In this document: positions 2,781 through 40,334 of the stretch, one piece after another
How positions within the stretch are numbered: position 1 is the first letter of the stretch
Layout of the letters: every line of letters begins with the position of its first letter
From: an uncultured Ruminococcus sp.
GTDB lineage: Bacteria; Bacillota; Clostridia; Oscillospirales; Ruminococcaceae
DNA: 62,896 bases
Direction: 5' to 3'
Assembly (NCBI GenBank): GCA_902786975.1
Contig: CADAES010000016.1
Span: forward strand, 1 to 62,896
Position numbers and translations under genes: made by a program
Notes under the pieces: model-generated
What the model saw: only the letters and a program-made list of their open reading frames with translations
What the model was told of the DNA's origin: nothing
Database searches by the model: none

Positions 2781-2934
2781 AGGTTAATCCTCCTGTATAT
2801 CAGAATTTGCCGTTCGAGTCACTAAGGCTTAGTAGCAGCTCCGCTGCTAAGGGGTTTCGTCTAAGGGGGAAACCTAAGGGAAGACAAGGAAGCCCTGCCT
2901 TACGGCGCCGGTACACGGACTTTTCTCCCCTTAG

Positions 2935-3265
2935 TATCCCCTTTCCCTTCACCTATCTTTTGCCGTACCCGCTCAATTATTTTGAGACAGCGGCAAACAT
3001 CAAGCAACACGCCGAGCGTGCGAGCCCGGCTACACCACTTGTGAGAATACATAGTTGTTTGCTTGATAGGTCAGGACTTATCGTTGTACACTCGGTGAAT
3101 AGTTGGGATAATTCTTCTGAAAAGAATCTTCCTGAACTCTCTCGGGTATCTCTCAGTTATTTTTGTAGAATAGGGCTTGAAAGCCCTATTCTACAAAAAT
3201 CATTAAAAGGTTTCTGAAAGGGGTTTGGGGAAAACTCTTCTCCAAAAGAGTTTTCTCCAATTAAT
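2935..3265 (+). repeat. Dispersed structured repeat, copy A
   Basis: This fills most of the 513-base gap between thiD and thiE, antisense to the operon. From the 5' end it has a block CCCTTTCCCTTCACC..ATCTTTTGC shared with copy B. Next comes TTCTTCTGAAAAGAAT, then TGAACTCTCTCGGG. A 19-bp perfect palindrome with a 2-base loop follows at about 3169-3209, then ATCATTAAAAGGTTTCTGAA. A second hairpin (GGGGAAAACTCTT with AAGAGTTTTCTCC) ends it. Copies B (19180-19665, minus) and C (37815-37995, plus) have the same order. The stretch 2807-2934 before it holds only small hairpins (for example around TAGCAGCTCCGCTGCTA) and no gene. Confidence 0.7.
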
Positions 3266-3293
3266 TACCGAATATACTGCTATAAATTCCGAT

Positions 3294-3929
3294 TTATAAC
3301 CCGAGCTTGTCCTTTACTGCCTGCGAAAGCTCCTTGACAGCTTTCTCGGGGTCGGGGGCTTTCATTATTGCTGATACTGCGCAGACACCTTTTATTCCGA
3401 TACCTTTGAGCACGTCGATATTATCCTTGTTCAGTCCGCCGATAGCGTTGACCGGGATAGACACAGCTTTGCATATACTATCGAGCATCTCCGTCGAGGT
3501 CAGCACGGTCTTTACCTTTGTGGTGGTGGGGTAGATAGCGCCCACGCCGAGGTAGTCCGCACCCTGTTCGTATGCTTCGAGCGCCTGCTCGACGGTCTTT
3601 GCGGTAGCGCCGATGATGAAGTCATCACCGAGTATCTCCCTTGCGGTCTTTATCGGCATATCGCTCTGTCCGAGGTGAACGCCCTCGGTCTTAGCCGCAA
3701 GCGCAACATCAATTCTGTCGTCGATGATCAGCGGTACGCCGAAGCGCTTTGCAAGCTCGTGTACCTTCTGCGCAAGGGCGATGTACTCCCTTGTCGTGCG
3801 CTCCTTTTCACGAAGCTGGATAAGACTTACCCCGCCTTTGAGCGCACTTTCCACACGCCCGAGGAACTCGTCCTCCGAATACGGCGTGCTGTCGGTTATG
3901 AAATATATCCTTGTGTCCAAGCTTTTCAC
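3294..3929 (-). CDS. thiE: Thiamine-phosphate synthase ThiE
   Basis: ThiE joins HMP-pyrophosphate and thiazole phosphate to make thiamine phosphate. The 211-residue TIM-barrel protein contains IQLREK near the N terminus (pyrophosphate-binding), a HLGQSDMP motif and the C-terminal VNAIGGLNKDNI phosphate loop, as expected. The start is GTG at 3929, set by GGAGGAAAAACA just before it. It lies 15 bases after the unknown gene at 3945 and is co-transcribed from the TPP-riboswitch promoter. Confidence 0.96.
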   Translation of the reverse strand: MKSLDTRIYFITDSTPYSEDEFLGRVESALKGGVSLIQLREKERTTREYIALAQKVHELAKRFGVPLIIDDRIDVALAAKTEGVHLGQSDMPIKTAREILGDDFIIGATAKTVEQALEAYEQGADYLGVGAIYPTTTKVKTVLTSTEMLDSICKAVSIPVNAIGGLNKDNIDVLKGIGIKGVCAVSAIMKAPDPEKAVKELSQAVKDKLGL

Positions 3930-6428: not shown

Positions 6429-6435
6429 CCGTAAC

Positions 6436-6531
6436 GCTTGTATAACTCCAAGTTCCTACGCTGGCATTACCCAAATCAGGTCTACGGTCAAAGGTGACAC
6501 CTTTTTCTCAGCCTGTCCGCACAAGCTCCCG
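6436..6531 (-). promoter_or_regulatory. TPP riboswitch aptamer
   Basis: The minus strand carries the conserved THI elements GGCTGAGA, ACCTGATTTGGGTAATGCC and AGCGTAGG in order, enclosed by a P1 stem GCTTGT/ACAAGC. It lies 230 bases upstream of thiW and is followed by an intrinsic terminator. It senses thiamine pyrophosphate and should switch off the whole thi operon when TPP is plentiful. Confidence 0.95.
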
Positions 6532-6742
6532 TTCAGATGTTAAGGAGCAAGGGGTAAGATGCAAGAGCCCTACCGTTCTCACTCTGATAGATATTATACA
6601 CCCGCTGAGCACAAATTGCAAGTACATTTGATGAACTTTTCGAAGCGGGGGGATAAAGACGCAATATGATCTGCAGTAATGCCTGCGATGTATCAAACTT
6701 TAAATGTTTGTCCCTTCCGGGCACAAAACTGTATTTGTTCTG

Positions 6743-18218: not shown

Positions 18219-18239
18219 TAATTTTTCGGAGGTAAAGTG

Positions 18240-19169
18240 ATGATCTACAATAATATCCTTGAATATGTCGGGCACACTCCGCTTGTCCGCCTTAACAGAA
18301 TGGTCGGGGAGGACAGCGCTGATGTTCTCGTCAAGTTCGAGGGACTCAACGTCGGCGGCTCGATAAAGACAAGGACCGCTTACAATATGATACTCGACGC
18401 CGAGGCTAAGGGGCTTATCAGCAAGGACACCGTGATAGTTGAGCCGACCTCGGGCAACCAGGGCATCGGGCTTGCGCTTATCGGTGCGGTAAGAGGCTAC
18501 AAGACAGTTATAATCATGCCTGACTCGGTCAGCGAGGAGCGCAGAAAGCTGGTCAGCCACTACGGCGCAGAGGTTATCCTCGTTCACGACGAGGGCAACA
18601 TCGGCAAGTGCATGGACGAGTGCGTTAAAATGGCTGAGGAAATGGCTGCGAAGGACAAGAACGTTTTTGTTCCGCAGCAGTTCTCAAACCCCGCAAACCC
18701 GCTTGCTCACAAGTACCACACGGGCGTTGAGATACTTGAACAAGCAGGCTGCAGGATCGACGGATTTTGCTCGGGCATCGGTACGGGCGGCACGATAAGC
18801 GGAATCGGGCAGGTGCTCAAAGCGCAGTACCCGAACATCGAGATATGGGCTGTCGAGCCGGAAAATGCAGCGATCCTTGCAGGCGGAACTGTTGGAACGC
18901 ACCTGCAAATGGGCATCGGCGACGGGCTTATCCCCGACAATCTCGATCTGAATATTTACAGCGATATCTATATCGTCACCGACGACGAGGCGATAAATAC
19001 CGCCAAGGATCTCGCAAGGCTCGAGGGCATAATGTGCGGTATCTCCAGCGGTACAAATGTCGCCGCAGCTATGAAACTCGCAAAAAAACTCGGTAAAGGT
19101 AAGGTCGTAGTCACTGTCCTTCCCGATACCGCAGAACGCTATTTCTCCACCCCGCTTTTTGAGGACTGA
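18240..19169 (+). CDS. cysK: Cysteine synthase family protein (O-acetylserine sulfhydrylase)
   Basis: A PLP-dependent beta-replacement enzyme of 309 residues that makes cysteine from O-acetylserine and sulfide. Present are TPLVRLNR, GGSIKTRTAYNMI with the PLP lysine (about residue 44), the substrate loop PTSGNQG and the phosphate-binding GIGTGGTISGIG. ATG at 18240 is seven bases from GGAGG; a GTG one codon earlier is possible. The active-site neighbourhood reads SIKTR rather than the usual SVKDR, so another beta-replacement substrate is possible. No serine acetyltransferase gene is adjacent. Confidence 0.88.
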   Translation: MIYNNILEYVGHTPLVRLNRMVGEDSADVLVKFEGLNVGGSIKTRTAYNMILDAEAKGLISKDTVIVEPTSGNQGIGLALIGAVRGYKTVIIMPDSVSEERRKLVSHYGAEVILVHDEGNIGKCMDECVKMAEEMAAKDKNVFVPQQFSNPANPLAHKYHTGVEILEQAGCRIDGFCSGIGTGGTISGIGQVLKAQYPNIEIWAVEPENAAILAGGTVGTHLQMGIGDGLIPDNLDLNIYSDIYIVTDDEAINTAKDLARLEGIMCGISSGTNVAAAMKLAKKLGKGKVVVTVLPDTAERYFSTPLFED

Positions 19170-19179
19170 CGAATTATTG

Positions 19180-19665
19180 GGGACAACTCTTTTGGAAGAA
19201 GCGTAACACGCAGTGGCGGTTACTCTGTTCCCCCCCGAGGATACCCGTTGGGTATCCTCGCAAGCGACCACAGGTCGCTTAACCCCATTTCAGAAACCTT
19301 TTAATGATTTTTCGTTATTGGGGTCTGCGACCCCAATAACGAAAAATGACTAGGAGTCCTGAGAGAGTTCAGAGAATAATCTTTTCAGAAGGATTGTTCT
19401 CAATAGCTCATCAATACTCAATAAGCGCAAAATGCACAAACTTATAGCTTTATGCTGAACAAGCTTGGAGGCGCCGTTTAAGTTCTGACAACGAAACAAC
19501 TGAAAAGATCGAACGGCAGTAATAGCAATATGAAATGGCGCAGCAACGAGCCCGGTCGAGCTGCGTCTTGCAGTAAGTCTGCCTCTTGTACAGAATATAG
19601 AGCAGTGCAGCTAACCCGGCTGCACTGCCTCAGCAAAAGATGGGTGAAGGGAAAGGGATAAATCT
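19180..19665 (-). repeat. Dispersed structured repeat, copy B
   Basis: Read on the minus strand it starts with CCCTTTCCCTTCACCCATC and TTTTGCTG, as copy A. It contains AGTTGTTT..GTCAG.ACTTA. Then come CTTCTGAAAAGAT, TGAACTCTCTC and AGTCATTTTT. A 19-bp palindrome of unrelated sequence follows (stem with TTATTGGGGTC), then AATCATTAAAAGGTTTCTGAA. Two further perfect hairpins (AAGCGACC/GGTCGCTT and GAGGATACCC/GGGTATCCTC) are inserted before the end CCAAAAGAGTTGTCCCC. It fills the gap between cysK and walJ; no gene is seen. A short TAAGANN run (minus) lies at 19703-19735. Confidence 0.7.
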
Positions 19666-19744
19666 TGATTCGCAAAATTTAAAAGGGAAACCAACCATCT
19701 TCGCTTCTTACATCTTATTTCTTATATCTAAAAAAGGAGAACCT

Positions 19745-20530
19745 ATGGCACGCATTTACCCACTTTTTTCTTCAAGCAGCGGAAACTGCACATATATCGG
19801 CAACGGCAGGCACGGTGTCCTAATCGACGCAGGCGTGTCAAACAAGCGTATCTGCGAGGCTCTCGACCTTAACGGGATAGACCCCAAAGGCATAAGCGGG
19901 CTGTTCATCACTCACACTCACTCCGACCACATCAACGGTCTGAAGGTGTTTGTAAAAAAATTCGGCGTACCGGTTTACGCCACGAGGAAAAATATCTCTA
20001 TACTGCTTGAGGGCGGCTATGTCCCAGAAAACGCCGAGCTTTACGAGCTTGACGGGGACAGCGTCTGCTGCGGCGACTACGAGCTTACGCCGTTTGAGAC
20101 TCCGCACGACACTCCGTCAAACTGCGGCTACGTCATAAACTGCCCCGACGGCAAGACTGCGGCTGTTTGCACCGACCTCGGCTGTGTGACACAGACGGTG
20201 TGGGAGAGTATACGTGGCTGCGACCTTGTGCTTCTGGAGTCAAACTACGATCCGTACATGCTCGCTCATGGCTCGTATCCGTATATGCTTCGCCAGCGCA
20301 TTTCTTCCGACCACGGGCACCTTTCAAACATCGACTGTGCGGACACTCTCGCACGGCTTGTGCAAAACGGCTGTGACAAGTTTATCCTCGGGCATCTTTC
20401 CCGTGAGAACAACACCCCGCAGACTGCCGAAAATACGGCGGTCGGGACTATGCAATCAATGGTTCGCAACAGGGATTATCTTCTGCACGTTGCAAGCCCC
20501 GACGGAAACGGATTGGCGGTGGCGTTTTGA
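19745..20530 (+). CDS. walJ: WalJ/YycJ-type metallo-beta-lactamase-fold hydrolase
   Basis: A 261-residue MBL-fold protein. The metal motif THTHSDHI (HxHxDH) lies near residue 54, and later ligands in PHDTPSNCGY, CTDLGCVT, LLESNYD and LGHLSREN match YycJ/WalJ, a likely 5'-3' exonuclease tied to cell-wall and DNA maintenance in Firmicutes. The ATG at 19745 follows AAAAAAGGAGAACCT; a longer frame from 19640 runs into repeat DNA and is rejected. Its stop overlaps the TTG start of rlmH, the usual pairing, though the walRK genes are not here. Confidence 0.93.
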   Translation: MARIYPLFSSSSGNCTYIGNGRHGVLIDAGVSNKRICEALDLNGIDPKGISGLFITHTHSDHINGLKVFVKKFGVPVYATRKNISILLEGGYVPENAELYELDGDSVCCGDYELTPFETPHDTPSNCGYVINCPDGKTAAVCTDLGCVTQTVWESIRGCDLVLLESNYDPYMLAHGSYPYMLRQRISSDHGHLSNIDCADTLARLVQNGCDKFILGHLSRENNTPQTAENTAVGTMQSMVRNRDYLLHVASPDGNGLAVAF

Positions 20531-36807: not shown

Positions 36808-37695
36808 ATGACATTAATACTTGACGGCGCAGTTGTCGGGATAATCGTACTGACCTGCATAATAGGCTATGTGCTTGGATTTTTCAAGTATGCGGCGCTT
36901 CTTCTCAAATCGGTGGCGGCGATAGTCGCAGCCGCACTCGTTGCGTTCATGTTTGCCGAGTCGCTTTACTGTGCGGTGGCGCAGGACAAGGCTGTAAAGG
37001 TCATCGAGGAGAAGATAGACAAGGTCGATGTGGTCAATATGATGGAAACAGACCTGCGCAAAAAGGGACTTCCGATGAAGGTCACAAACGAGGACCTGCG
37101 GCAGGCTCTGCTCAAAGACGGCGACGTTGTAAAGAATATGCGTGATATGATAGGCTCCAAGGGAGTTGACGGTGCAGTCGCCGACAAGACGATGAAGGAC
37201 TTTGAGGACTACCTTGACAACGAGCTTTTCGGGCGTATACTCAAAGCGGTCAACGACAGCGGAAAAAGCGGCAACATGGGGCTTCTGAATATGGGACTCG
37301 AAAACACCCGTGAGGAGCTTGCGAAGTTCGTGCGTTTCCTGATACCGACGGACAAGCACAAGGCGGCGCAGAACATCGAGGAGCATTACGTCAGACCGTT
37401 CGGGAAGATGATAGCGGGTGCGGTGCTGTTCTTCATAACGGCGATAATTGTTTCAATAGTGCTTATGATAGTGGTGAGGATGCTGGACATACTCAGCAGG
37501 ATAAAGGTGCTTTCTGCGGCAAACAGCTTCGGAGGGCTTGCGCTGGGTGCGGCAAAGGGTATTCTGTACGTGGTGATAGGAGCATATATTGTAAGTACGG
37601 TTGTCAGCTCGTCCAAGGATCAGCTCGACAAGCTGAATACGGATATAATCAATAAGACGTACCTGTTCAAGTATTTCTTCAGGCTATTCTATTAA
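36808..37695 (+). CDS. CvpA family membrane protein
   Basis: A 295-residue protein with two N-terminal spans (AVVGIIVLTCIIGYVLGFFK and SVAAIVAAALVAFMFAESLY). A long soluble insert (about residues 60-195) and two C-terminal spans follow. The N terminus and the ANSFGGLALGAAKGILYVV segment are the CvpA signature. CvpA proteins are linked to colicin V export in E. coli and to envelope homeostasis elsewhere. AAGAGGTCAAGCC precedes the ATG. It ends the ecf-truA-DUF5711 run. Confidence 0.88.
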   Translation: MTLILDGAVVGIIVLTCIIGYVLGFFKYAALLLKSVAAIVAAALVAFMFAESLYCAVAQDKAVKVIEEKIDKVDVVNMMETDLRKKGLPMKVTNEDLRQALLKDGDVVKNMRDMIGSKGVDGAVADKTMKDFEDYLDNELFGRILKAVNDSGKSGNMGLLNMGLENTREELAKFVRFLIPTDKHKAAQNIEEHYVRPFGKMIAGAVLFFITAIIVSIVLMIVVRMLDILSRIKVLSAANSFGGLALGAAKGILYVVIGAYIVSTVVSSSKDQLDKLNTDIINKTYLFKYFFRLFY

Positions 37696-37814: not shown

Positions 37815-37995
37815 CTCTGCGGTGCCTGACGGAGAGTAATTCTTCTAAACAAGATTTTTCTCTGTGCACTCTCTTGGGACTTTCAGTCATTTTCAGGGAA
37901 TAGGGCTTTATGCCCTGTTCACTGAAAATAATTAAGAGGTTTCTCAGGGGGGTACGGGGGGGAGTCTTCTCTAAAAGAGTTCCCCCCCGTTCAGA
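37815..37995 (+). repeat. Dispersed structured repeat, copy C
   Basis: Same 3' half as copies A and B: GAGAGTAATTCTTCTAAA, then ACTCTCTTGGGAC..TCAGTCATTTTC. A stem of 8 + 9 bp with its own sequence (ATTTTCAG/CTGAAAAT; GAATAGGGC/GCCCTGTTC) follows. Then comes AATTAAGAGGTTTCTCAGG and a terminal hairpin with seven G/C pairs. It fills most of the 323-base gap between cvpA and clpE and ends about ten bases before the clpE ribosome site. The bases 37696-37814 show no gene. Confidence 0.7.
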
Positions 37996-38018: not shown

Positions 38019-40334
38019 ATGATGATGTGTTCGAGGTGTCATGTAAGGCCTGCGGTGGTCTTTATTTCACAGATAAATCCGAACAAGCCCGAGGAAAAGA
38101 AAAACGAGGGCTTATGTCTGATGTGCGCTAAGGAGCTTGGTCTGCCGCAGGTGGACGAGTACATCAAATCCATGGGCATCAGCGAGGACGAGCTGAATGC
38201 GATGAGCGAGCAGCTTGCAGAGGTCCCCGACGGCGACGATTTTGAAATGGGCGGAAGCGGCACTGTGCCCGACTTCCTGACCAACCTTTTCGGCGAGATG
38301 GGCAAGGCAGGAGGTCTGCTGGGCAACCTCGCAGGAGAGCTTTCAAAGAGTGCCGAGCAGGCAGCCGAGGCGGCTAAGGACAGCGCCAAGGCAGTAAAAG
38401 AAAACAAGGAAAAGAAAAAGGGCAAACTCAAATTTCTCGACAGCTACTGCACCAATCTGACCGAGCGTGCGAGGAACAACGAGCTTGACAGGATAATCGG
38501 CAGGGACAAGGAGATATCCCGTGTCATACACATTCTTTCAAGACGTCAGAAAAACAACCCCTGCCTTATAGGTGAGCCGGGTGTCGGAAAGACCGCTGTT
38601 GCGGAGGGTATCGCCCAGAAGATAGTTGCGGGCGACGTTCCGTTCCATTTGCAGGACAAGGAGGTCTACCTGCTCGACCTGACTGCGCTCGTTGCGGGCA
38701 CACAGTTCAGAGGTCAGTTCGAGAGCCGCTGCAAGGGACTTGTTGAGGAGGTCAAGAAGCAGGGCAATATTATCCTGTTCATTGACGAGGTACACACGCT
38801 TGTCGGAACTGGCGACTCCGAGGGCACGATGAATGCCGCAAATATCCTTAAGCCGTCGCTTTCAAGAGGCGAGATACAGGTCATTGGTGCGACGACTTTC
38901 AAGGAGTACAGAAAGTATATCGAAAAGGACGCTGCGCTTGAAAGGCGTTTCCAGCCGGTCAGCGTAGGTGAGCCGACCGTGGAGGAGACAGTCGAGGTGC
39001 TCAAGGGCATCAAGGGCTACTACGAAAGGTTCCACCGTGTGCATATCTCCGACGATATGCTCAGAAAATGTGCGGTGCTTTCGGAAAGATACATCAACGA
39101 CAGGTTCCTGCCCGACAAGGCTATCGACCTGCTCGACGAGGCGTGCGCATGCACAAGCATAGATACTCCCGAGCTTGCAGAGCTTGACAGGCTCAACGAG
39201 GAGCTTAAAAAGCATCAGGACCTTGTCAGCGACTACGAGCAGAGATCAGACCCCGATTACGAGATACTTGCGACCGAAAAAGCAGAGATATCCCGCATAG
39301 AGAACAGGCTCAAAGAGGTCGAGGAGGTCGTTAAGAACGTACAGGTCACCGACGGCGACATCTCAAAGGTCATAGAACTGTGGACGGGTATCCCCGCAAA
39401 CAAGATATCACAAAGCGAATTTGAAAAGATAAAGAACCTGCGCTCGGAGCTTTCAAAGAGGGTCATCGGACAGGACGAGGCGGTCGAAAAGGTCGCAAAC
39501 GCTATCAGACGCACAAGGGTACAGCTCTCCAAGCGCCGCAGACCCGCATCGTTCATATTCGTAGGACCTACAGGCGTGGGCAAGACCGAGCTTGTCAAGG
39601 TGCTTGGCGAAACGCTGTTCGATGCGACCGAGCCTCTTATCAGAGTAGATATGTCCGAGTATATGGAACGTCACACGGTCAGCAAGCTCATCGGGTCGCC
39701 TCCGGGATATGTTGGCTTTGACGAGGCAGGTCAGCTTACCGAAAAGGTAAGGCGCAGACCTTACAGCGTTGTGCTTTTCGACGAGATAGAAAAGGCGCAC
39801 CCCGACGTTATGAATATCCTGCTGCAGATACTCGACGAGGGCACGATACACGATTCTCAGGGAAGAGATGTCAACTTTGAGAACACGGTTATAGTTATGA
39901 CCTCAAACGCAGGCTCGACGGACAAGGACACGGGCGTTGGCTTCAACAAGACTGACAACGAGATAGCTCACGACAAGGCTATGAAGGCGCTGCGTGAGTT
40001 CCTTCGCCCCGAATTTCTCGGAAGAGTGGACGAGATAGTCGTGTTCAACAGTCTCACACAGGAAGACTTTGCGGGCATCGCACGGCTTATGCTCGGCGAG
40101 ATAGCCCAGCCGCTTGAGGAGCGTGGAATAAAGCTGCGCTACAGCGATGAAGTGCTCGGCGTGATAGCGAAGAAAGCGTATAGCGGAAAGCTCGGCGCAA
40201 GAGATATCCGCCGTGTCATCAGAAACGAGGTAGAGGACAGGATAAGCGAGTATATCGTTGACAAGGGCGACACGGGCATCACGGCGTTTGGCATCACAGC
40301 CGACGGCGAGGAGCTTAATGTGGAATGCCTCTAG
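38019..40334 (+). CDS. clpE: ClpE-type ATP-dependent protease ATPase subunit
   Basis: A class I Hsp100 unfoldase of 771 residues. The N-terminal zinc finger C4-x2-C7...C33-x2-C36 replaces a Clp_N domain, as in ClpE. An Ala/Glu/Lys linker follows. Nucleotide domain 1 has [13 protein letters not shown] and [11 protein letters not shown], a short coiled middle domain comes next, and domain 2 has [12 protein letters not shown] and [14 protein letters not shown] loop (near GVGFNK) can dock on ClpP. AGAAAGGAGCATTCGTT precedes the ATG. No CtsR or CIRCE box is seen. Its TAG stop lies within a heptamer repeat. Confidence 0.93.

Follow-up and report, generated by a model that had tools for sequence, protein, structure and literature searches.

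Palindromic bacterial repeats have long been held to act as folded RNA, and bcr1, one of the dispersed repeats of Firmicutes, is mobile. The closest described systems are, as portrayed in the passages cited here, the enterobacterial ERIC/IRU/RU-1 elements, i.e. intergenic palindromic MITEs of 127 bp with terminal inverted repeats of 7 bp (PMC2229807, PMC2267715, PMC10969869), and RUP of Streptococcus pneumoniae, a small element with terminal inverted repeats at TA sites that is proposed to be moved in trans, with IS630-Spn1 as the partner (PMC2229807). In the corresponding passages, bcr1 of the Bacillus cereus group is presented as a repeat with a predicted common secondary structure (PMC2267715), and the REP/BIME sequences with RAYT transposases as extragenic palindromes, the REPs measuring 20-40 bp (PMC2817692, PMC3733652). 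The repeat described below, with matches in 20 of the 29 Ruminococcus genomes sampled, is probably a new family, distinguished by an unusual core that probably folds as RNA and by an exchangeable hairpin.

The window, i.e. the whole stretch of DNA analyzed, comprises 62,896 nucleotides of an uncultured Ruminococcus sp. (contig CADAES010000016.1, assembly GCA_902786975.1); it starts with a cut 5S rRNA gene (1-93, + strand) and a tRNA gene (104-176, +), and a TPP riboswitch is located upstream of thi genes (6435-6542, -). From the outside inwards, the repeat consists of outer inverted arms, which are paired and vary between copies, a small 5' hairpin (P2), a central hairpin of 18 bp (P3), which differs in sequence in most copies and is paired in nearly all, the nearly invariant linker ATTAARAGGTTTCT, and a hairpin (P4) with its loop around CUCCAA. 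With no more than one mismatch, the linker occurs three times in the window (0.09 expected).

The first-pass annotation had recognized three copies of one repeat family, and all three are present where it had placed them; the limits of copy A were wrong, since this element extends from end to end over 2796-3296 (+; 501 bp) and not over 2935-3265, with the inverted ends TATATCAGAATTTGCCG and ...TAAATTCCGATTTA. Copy A lies between thiD (1974-2780, -) and thiE (3294-3929, -), and its right end overlaps the stop codon of thiE. Its parts, all on the + strand, are P2 (3111-3127, ATTCTTCTGAAAAGAAT), the core (3139-3261; match to covariance model R1 with 129.5 bits), P3 (3159-3200; 5' arm 3159-3176, 3' arm 3183-3200), the linker (3202-3215, ATTAAAAGGTTTCT) and P4 (3225-3260; arms 3225-3239 and 3246-3260, loop CTCCAA). 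The left part of copy A contains a second repeat module (2840-3060, +; TTCCCTTCACCTATCTTTTGC ... CTTGATAGG), which is partly common to copy B and contigs C44 and C29 (loci L003, L010, L004 and L011); in the unit with this module on contig C44, P3 is seemingly absent altogether. An ORF of 136 aa with a TTG start (2807-3217, +) runs through most of copy A including P3, and has no Pfam match to E 0.1.

Copy B (19180-19665, -) is flanked by a PALP-family gene (18237-19169, +) and a metallo-beta-lactamase-fold gene (ORF 19640-20530, +), with the core match at 19260-19367 and P3 at 19307-19347 (both -); further hairpins, three by eye, are found in place of the distal P4, which defines a type-B copy. 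Copy C (37815-37995, +) is flanked by a colicin V production-family gene (36808-37695, +) and a Clp-type AAA gene (38019-40334, +); its core match is at 37869-37990, P3 at 37889-37929, the linker at 37931-37944 and P4 at about 37953-37989 (all +). The grouping into one family is borne out by BLASTN against copy A, which matched copy C at E 5.5e-16 and copy B at 8e-14 in the 2.37-Mb genome; the ordered blocks said to be shared are present but not letter-identical (AGTTATTTTT in copy A; AGTCATTTTC, ATTAAGAGG and TTCTTCTAAACAAGAT in copy C). The final 238 nt of copy A give a branched predicted fold (z -8.8), and a 232-bp unit of Ruminococcus sp. FC2018 gives one long predicted hairpin (-106.8 kcal/mol, z -10.0). 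Some loci consist of two units head to head; such pairs seemingly have one common junction sequence on FC2018 contigs C6, C10, C19, C24 and C4, and on contig C4 of the genome of the window (67773-68141).

The three copies recognized initially are part of a larger set in this genome. A query of 2880-3300 gave 29 BLASTN matches across it, and R1 (122 positions with 33 pairs, built from 29 copies) gave 76 matches at E <= 0.01, which were merged to 40 non-overlapping places, weak ones up to E 0.01 included; matches were doubled on opposite strands because the whole element is roughly palindromic. When 61 genomes were searched at E <= 0.001, R1 matched 23, i.e. 20 of the 29 of the genus (that of the window counted) and three of 32 others, and nine genus genomes were without a match at this threshold; counts per genome in this search are among the best 58 scored candidates, with both strands counted. 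The matches outside the genus were weak (G041, G052 and G055; best E 1.2e-6), and one look at that in G052 revealed no resemblance to the family. The recurrence of the repeat in related genomes is thereby established. In a more distant group inside the genus (e.g. G005, G022 and G027) the layout looks the same by eye: P2 and P4 are strong hairpins, and P3 is longer by about 50 nt; in G022, which has five contigs, all 24 matches were on contig C5 (3,685,408 bp). Named genomes, when scanned with a sequence pattern, yielded 29 stretches under the titles uncultured Ruminococcus, Clostridiales or Clostridia, and one of Ruminococcus sp. FC2018; the RUG records are presumably of rumen origin. A chance origin is ruled out by the BLASTN E values, the pairing controls described below, and the linker count relative to expectation.

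As the first-pass annotation had presumed, no known family was matched: neither copies A-C nor the elements of 10 further loci gave an Rfam match at gathering score (4227 families), nor was an insertion sequence matched (PF13358 being the transposase domain searched). The sole Rfam match in the 10 further loci was the S10 leader in L097, outside the element, and matches below threshold, which were rejected, were mostly to microRNA/small-RNA models that fit the hairpin. No published description of the family was found in searches of an open-access library. The earlier view that the stems are not ordinary terminators holds as well, as the T run that follows the G+C-rich hairpin of an intrinsic terminator is absent after P3 and P4 in copies A-C. 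Copy A contains two terminator-like sites (0.5 expected), of which the one on the + strand (3224-3246) is a partial stem inside P4, and the scan of copy C gave none; the terminator reading was thus rejected. Promoter-like sites numbered three in copy A (0.6 expected) and none in copy C, and a conserved promoter was not found in the 5' 100 nt of 81 copies (17 copies with promoter-like sites on the + strand and 12 on the - strand, with 8.45 expected).

A subset of the elements is bounded by the inverted ends TAAATCAGAATTT...AAATTCTGATTTA. Thirty-four spans between end-like inverted repeats (no more than two mismatches at each end) were collected, some of them nested, with lengths of 178-733 bp except for one of 970 bp. 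TA is present at both tips in 29 of these spans, and the exact 13-mer at both ends in 17; no target-site duplication longer than TA was seen in the 34 spans and, since TA is part of the inverted repeat, a TA duplication is compatible with the data and not proven. The exact 17-base end pattern TAAATCAGAATTTRCCG is present in nine of the 29 genus genomes. Many copies are without the TAAATC end, and their outer arms still pair; arms match better within copies than between copies (mean score 11.6 vs 7.2; 0 of 5000 permutations), the own arm being the best partner for only 21 of 81 copies. An element of 571 bp with exact inverted ends in the genome of the window (L144, 3772-4342 on contig C17) has other hairpin-like stretches, and the P3-P4 core was not found in it.

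The longest inner ORF comprises 27-144 aa in 33 of the 34 spans. In the 970-bp span, an FC2018 locus with two end-like repeats of which one is imperfect (L159, 339-1308), it comprises 288 aa, and we take it to be EamA/DMT-like; this span was dismissed as an autonomous unit, as the reading frame does not look like a transposase gene and no transposase-like ORF was seen inside the span. The loci retrieved revealed no autonomous transposon bearing the inverted ends. An IS630-type partner was discarded on the finding that PF13358 was over the cut-off in none of the 29 genus genomes, with two matches below it. BLASTN gave, within its sensitivity, no plasmid or phage match to the element, and viral carriage was dismissed; a first scan gave nothing, and a second gave three stretches with the end pattern, which were single matches without core anchors.

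Filled and empty sites were observed where a lysophospholipase-type gene adjoins the next gene: in FC2018 and G012 a complete insert starts at the stop codon with the inverted end described above, the interiors being different; in G020 and G009 this end is also present, and the contig then breaks off; in the sister species G004, G006 and G016 the spacer measures about 30 nt; a small reading frame without such an end is located here in the genome of the window. At the thiE-thiD junction, an element or end was seen by eye in the genome of the window, G012, G004, G006, G020 and G009, and other sequence in FC2018 and G016, with several contigs breaking nearby; given these differences among species, the junction looks like a variable site. 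In G009 (locus L168), the left end TATATCAGAATTTGCCG is retained beside thiD, and a long coding-like stretch extends up to thiE. In the same genome (RUG13311), exact end matches number 52, of which 26 are no further than 420 bases from the start of a contig, and a recent amplification probably breaks the assembly, as near-identical copies would. The inverted ends together with the filled and empty sites speak for the mobile hairpin element that had been suggested as one option, and the repeat is probably a MITE-like mobile element.

Copies are often retained in place between species. Among 138 copies of nine species (from 212, after removal of unplaced genomes, duplicates and short flanks), 47 pairs involving 60 copies agree in both gene boundary and orientation; when either flank was counted, there were 63 same-orientation and 15 opposite pairs, the latter mostly head-to-head loci. 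In four pairs the cores are 95-99% identical, in comparison to 84-88% for the flank next to them, most of which is coding; in these pairs no paralogue among the copies compared exceeds 79%. Elsewhere the cores differ strongly: core identity of at least 90% was reached in only eight of the 47 pairs, including L094/L287 (with paralogues of 98-99%), and only 10 of the 47 exceed both best paralogues among the copies compared.

The pairing of the core is maintained in spite of sequence change, as had been claimed. Thirty-three copies with a near P4 and enough sequence were kept; 29 were aligned with MAFFT, blind to structure, and L021, L022, L036 and L038 were left out (rearranged 5' arm or type-B P4). 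In this alignment, 97.5% of 957 cells are paired, and two-sided changes are found in 26 of the 33 pairs. The covariation is strong, with a score of 0.606 that is above all 500 shuffles (0.187) and every slid pairing (up to 0.182) run as controls. In a model-fitted alignment of 74 distinct rows, antisense rows included, 95.2% of cells are paired, and when 81 extended copies (from 98, after removal of rows that were long, cut off or contained N) were submitted to RNAalifold, P3 and a portion of P4 were all that was retained; this 81-copy alignment gave no support to the outer and 5' helices. The description of the P3 stems as unrelated applies to most of the inner sequence but not to the TTTT/AAAA base or the GGG near the tip, which are largely conserved, and the stem of copy B, thought to be unlike the others, recurs in further copies and species.

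If both DNA strands had equal weight, G-T mispairs would be expected about as often as A-C mispairs. In the structure-blind 29-row alignment, the G-T:A-C ratio in P3 is 23:2; model-fitted alignments could lean to G-T, which this count cannot. In 98 copies (150 rows minus 41 overlapping and 11 identical), the ratio is 104:6 in P3 and 45:6 in P4 and, with related stems collapsed to clusters, 30:4 (p = 6e-6) and 16:3 (p = 0.004), respectively. The excess recurs in each genome set (genome of the window 24:1, FC2018 32:3, RUG13311 3:0, others 16:2). The outer arms are balanced at 103:93 (34 of 81 arms, with a score of at least 11 and near-duplicates removed). An excess of G-T in P3 and P4 that is absent in the arms indicates a core folding as one strand, always of one polarity, and arms that behave like double-stranded transposon ends. 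The core thus looks like a single strand of one polarity, the simplest such strand being RNA; a single-stranded DNA stage could also generate the excess, and the stem shape may date from the mobile lineage before insertion. For a folded strand, the G-T excess and the strong conservation of a few resident cores are better evidence than the covariation.

The most likely interpretation, and one that we hold with fair confidence, is a MITE-like palindromic family that spread through the genus, with a folded core of one polarity that is most simply RNA; the repeat would probably be a mobile palindromic element of the ERIC/RUP/bcr1 kind in which the folded core is RNA. The outer arms would act as DNA ends; in one large subset they are terminal inverted repeats whose tips both carry TA, and these would probably be cut by a transposase supplied in trans. 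The core of about 120 nt (P3, linker and P4) would fold as one strand of fixed polarity, most simply an RNA that the element itself produces. Many copies, once inserted, would stay at one gene boundary through speciation, and P3 would be renewed by small, mostly compensated changes as well as by exchange of whole hairpins between copies, perhaps via the conserved blocks on either side of P3. A further-reaching proposal, which we put forward tentatively, is a new class of mobile structured noncoding RNA, i.e. a transposable RNA gene with a core transcribed from its own strand, under strong purifying selection at resident sites, and with a hairpin, exchanged by recombination, that tags copies differently in a fixed protein- or RNA-binding frame.

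Part of the difference between the palindromes of the copies is due to exchange of whole hairpins, and part to compensated change. In the 47 orthologous pairs, 521 P3 base pairs are unchanged, 240 are changed on both sides and still paired, and 40 are changed via wobble; 11 are A-C, 16 are broken and 18 are gapped. Identical inner P3 sequences occur on backbones that are only 51-64% identical, in several cases involving type-B copies with replaced P4, and copies whose backbones share 90% identity or more may have 5-10 of 13 inner P3 pairs different; backbone similarity averages 0.75 for copies that share a P3, compared to 0.65. As P3 is transferred whole from one backbone to another, both arms together, exchange can supply part of the covariation, and covariation alone overstates stepwise selection; the earlier conclusion of selection on structure from changed sequence with maintained pairing is to be qualified accordingly. 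This cassette-like behavior is what would be expected of a purely DNA-level MITE, whose palindrome is kept by template switching, gene conversion, hairpin swapping and transposase binding, with no role for RNA. The changes among close stems (48 double changes to Watson-Crick pairs and nine other; single steps 29 via G-T, six via A-C and 13 via other mismatches) fit with it, as do the long hairpin of the 232-bp unit and the resemblance of sites and ends to transposition. We nevertheless regard it as unlikely, since such mechanics favor neither G-T nor A-C per strand, while P3 and P4 favor G-T and the outer arms do not, and since the four resident cores exceed the conservation of their flanks without a close paralogue among the copies compared.

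The surroundings of the copies bear on a cis-acting mRNA element, that is, a stabilizer, RNase site, attenuator or terminator of flanking genes. At 57 loci of the genome of the window and FC2018 (simple ORF calls), the elements are mostly intergenic, although in eight an ORF of 90 aa or more (217 aa in one) spans the core, and their 3' side is often 10-60 nt from the next gene. This placement, the orientation mostly kept at orthologous sites, and the action on mRNA that is attributed to ERIC and Correia/NEMIS repeats in the passage cited (PMC2229807) are in line with such a function. However, the downstream gene is near evenly antisense (31) or sense (25) among 56, with inverted dimers not independent; there is no orientation preference and so no hint of a leader or terminator. 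The strand preference of P3 is likewise the same in copies antisense (24:1) and sense (17:1) to both neighbors, and in mixed ones (20:2), as counted for 49 distinct stems at 53 of the 57 loci (L123, L124, L140 and L142, without a neighbor, left out). Together with the hairpins without a T run, where copy C has no terminator-like site and 3224-3246 of copy A is only a partial P4 stem, this makes a cis-acting element improbable.

At 27 chosen FC2018 sites (a set without inverted dimers, C20 and a few of the weak matches), with the replication strand judged from GC skew over about 20 kb, 11 copies were on the leading and 10 on the lagging strand, and six were set aside for weak skew. A single-strand-DNA element of the IS200/IS605, REP or attC-like kind, with its fold read by a recombinase or HUH transposase, would account for a one-polarity fold independent of neighboring genes but is highly improbable, as a replication-strand bias is absent, which also dismisses the lagging-strand variant, and as the ends are inverted repeats with TA, which the ends of IS200/IS605 do not resemble.

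Returning to the mobile repeat with a folded core, a central hairpin that is swapped or rewritten and yet paired suggests a folded RNA carried along by a mobile DNA element. Selection on RNA and the mechanics of palindromic DNA are hard to separate, and the contrast in wobble between core and arms provides signal and internal control in one element. Many genomes yield dozens of matches, 20 species are represented, and Ruminococcus sp. FC2018 is a named carrier strain, which makes the question testable; exchange of hairpin cassettes between fixed blocks, if real, would be an unusual route to repeat diversity.

As far as the cited passages describe these systems, the Ruminococcus repeat resembles ERIC/IRU/RU-1 in its TA termini, tens to hundreds of copies, and one long predicted stem-loop, and is set apart from ERIC, by description, through its arms with three hairpins, the variable outer and inner helices, and the wobble preference of one strand; it has so far been seen in Ruminococcus, and ERIC/IRU/RU-1 in enterobacteria. 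Like the REP/BIME sequences in the portions cited it is extragenic and palindromic, and also occurs in alternating orientation, but the REPs of 20-40 bp are exceeded by spans of 178-733 bp and one of 970 bp. With RUP, within the cited account, it shares the small size, terminal inverted repeats, TA sites and the proposed mobility in trans, but not the IS630-type partner, whose domain PF13358 was over the cut-off in 0 of 29 Ruminococcus genomes. To bcr1 it can be likened by the published description, not by sequence, as a dispersed repeat of Firmicutes with a predicted structure.
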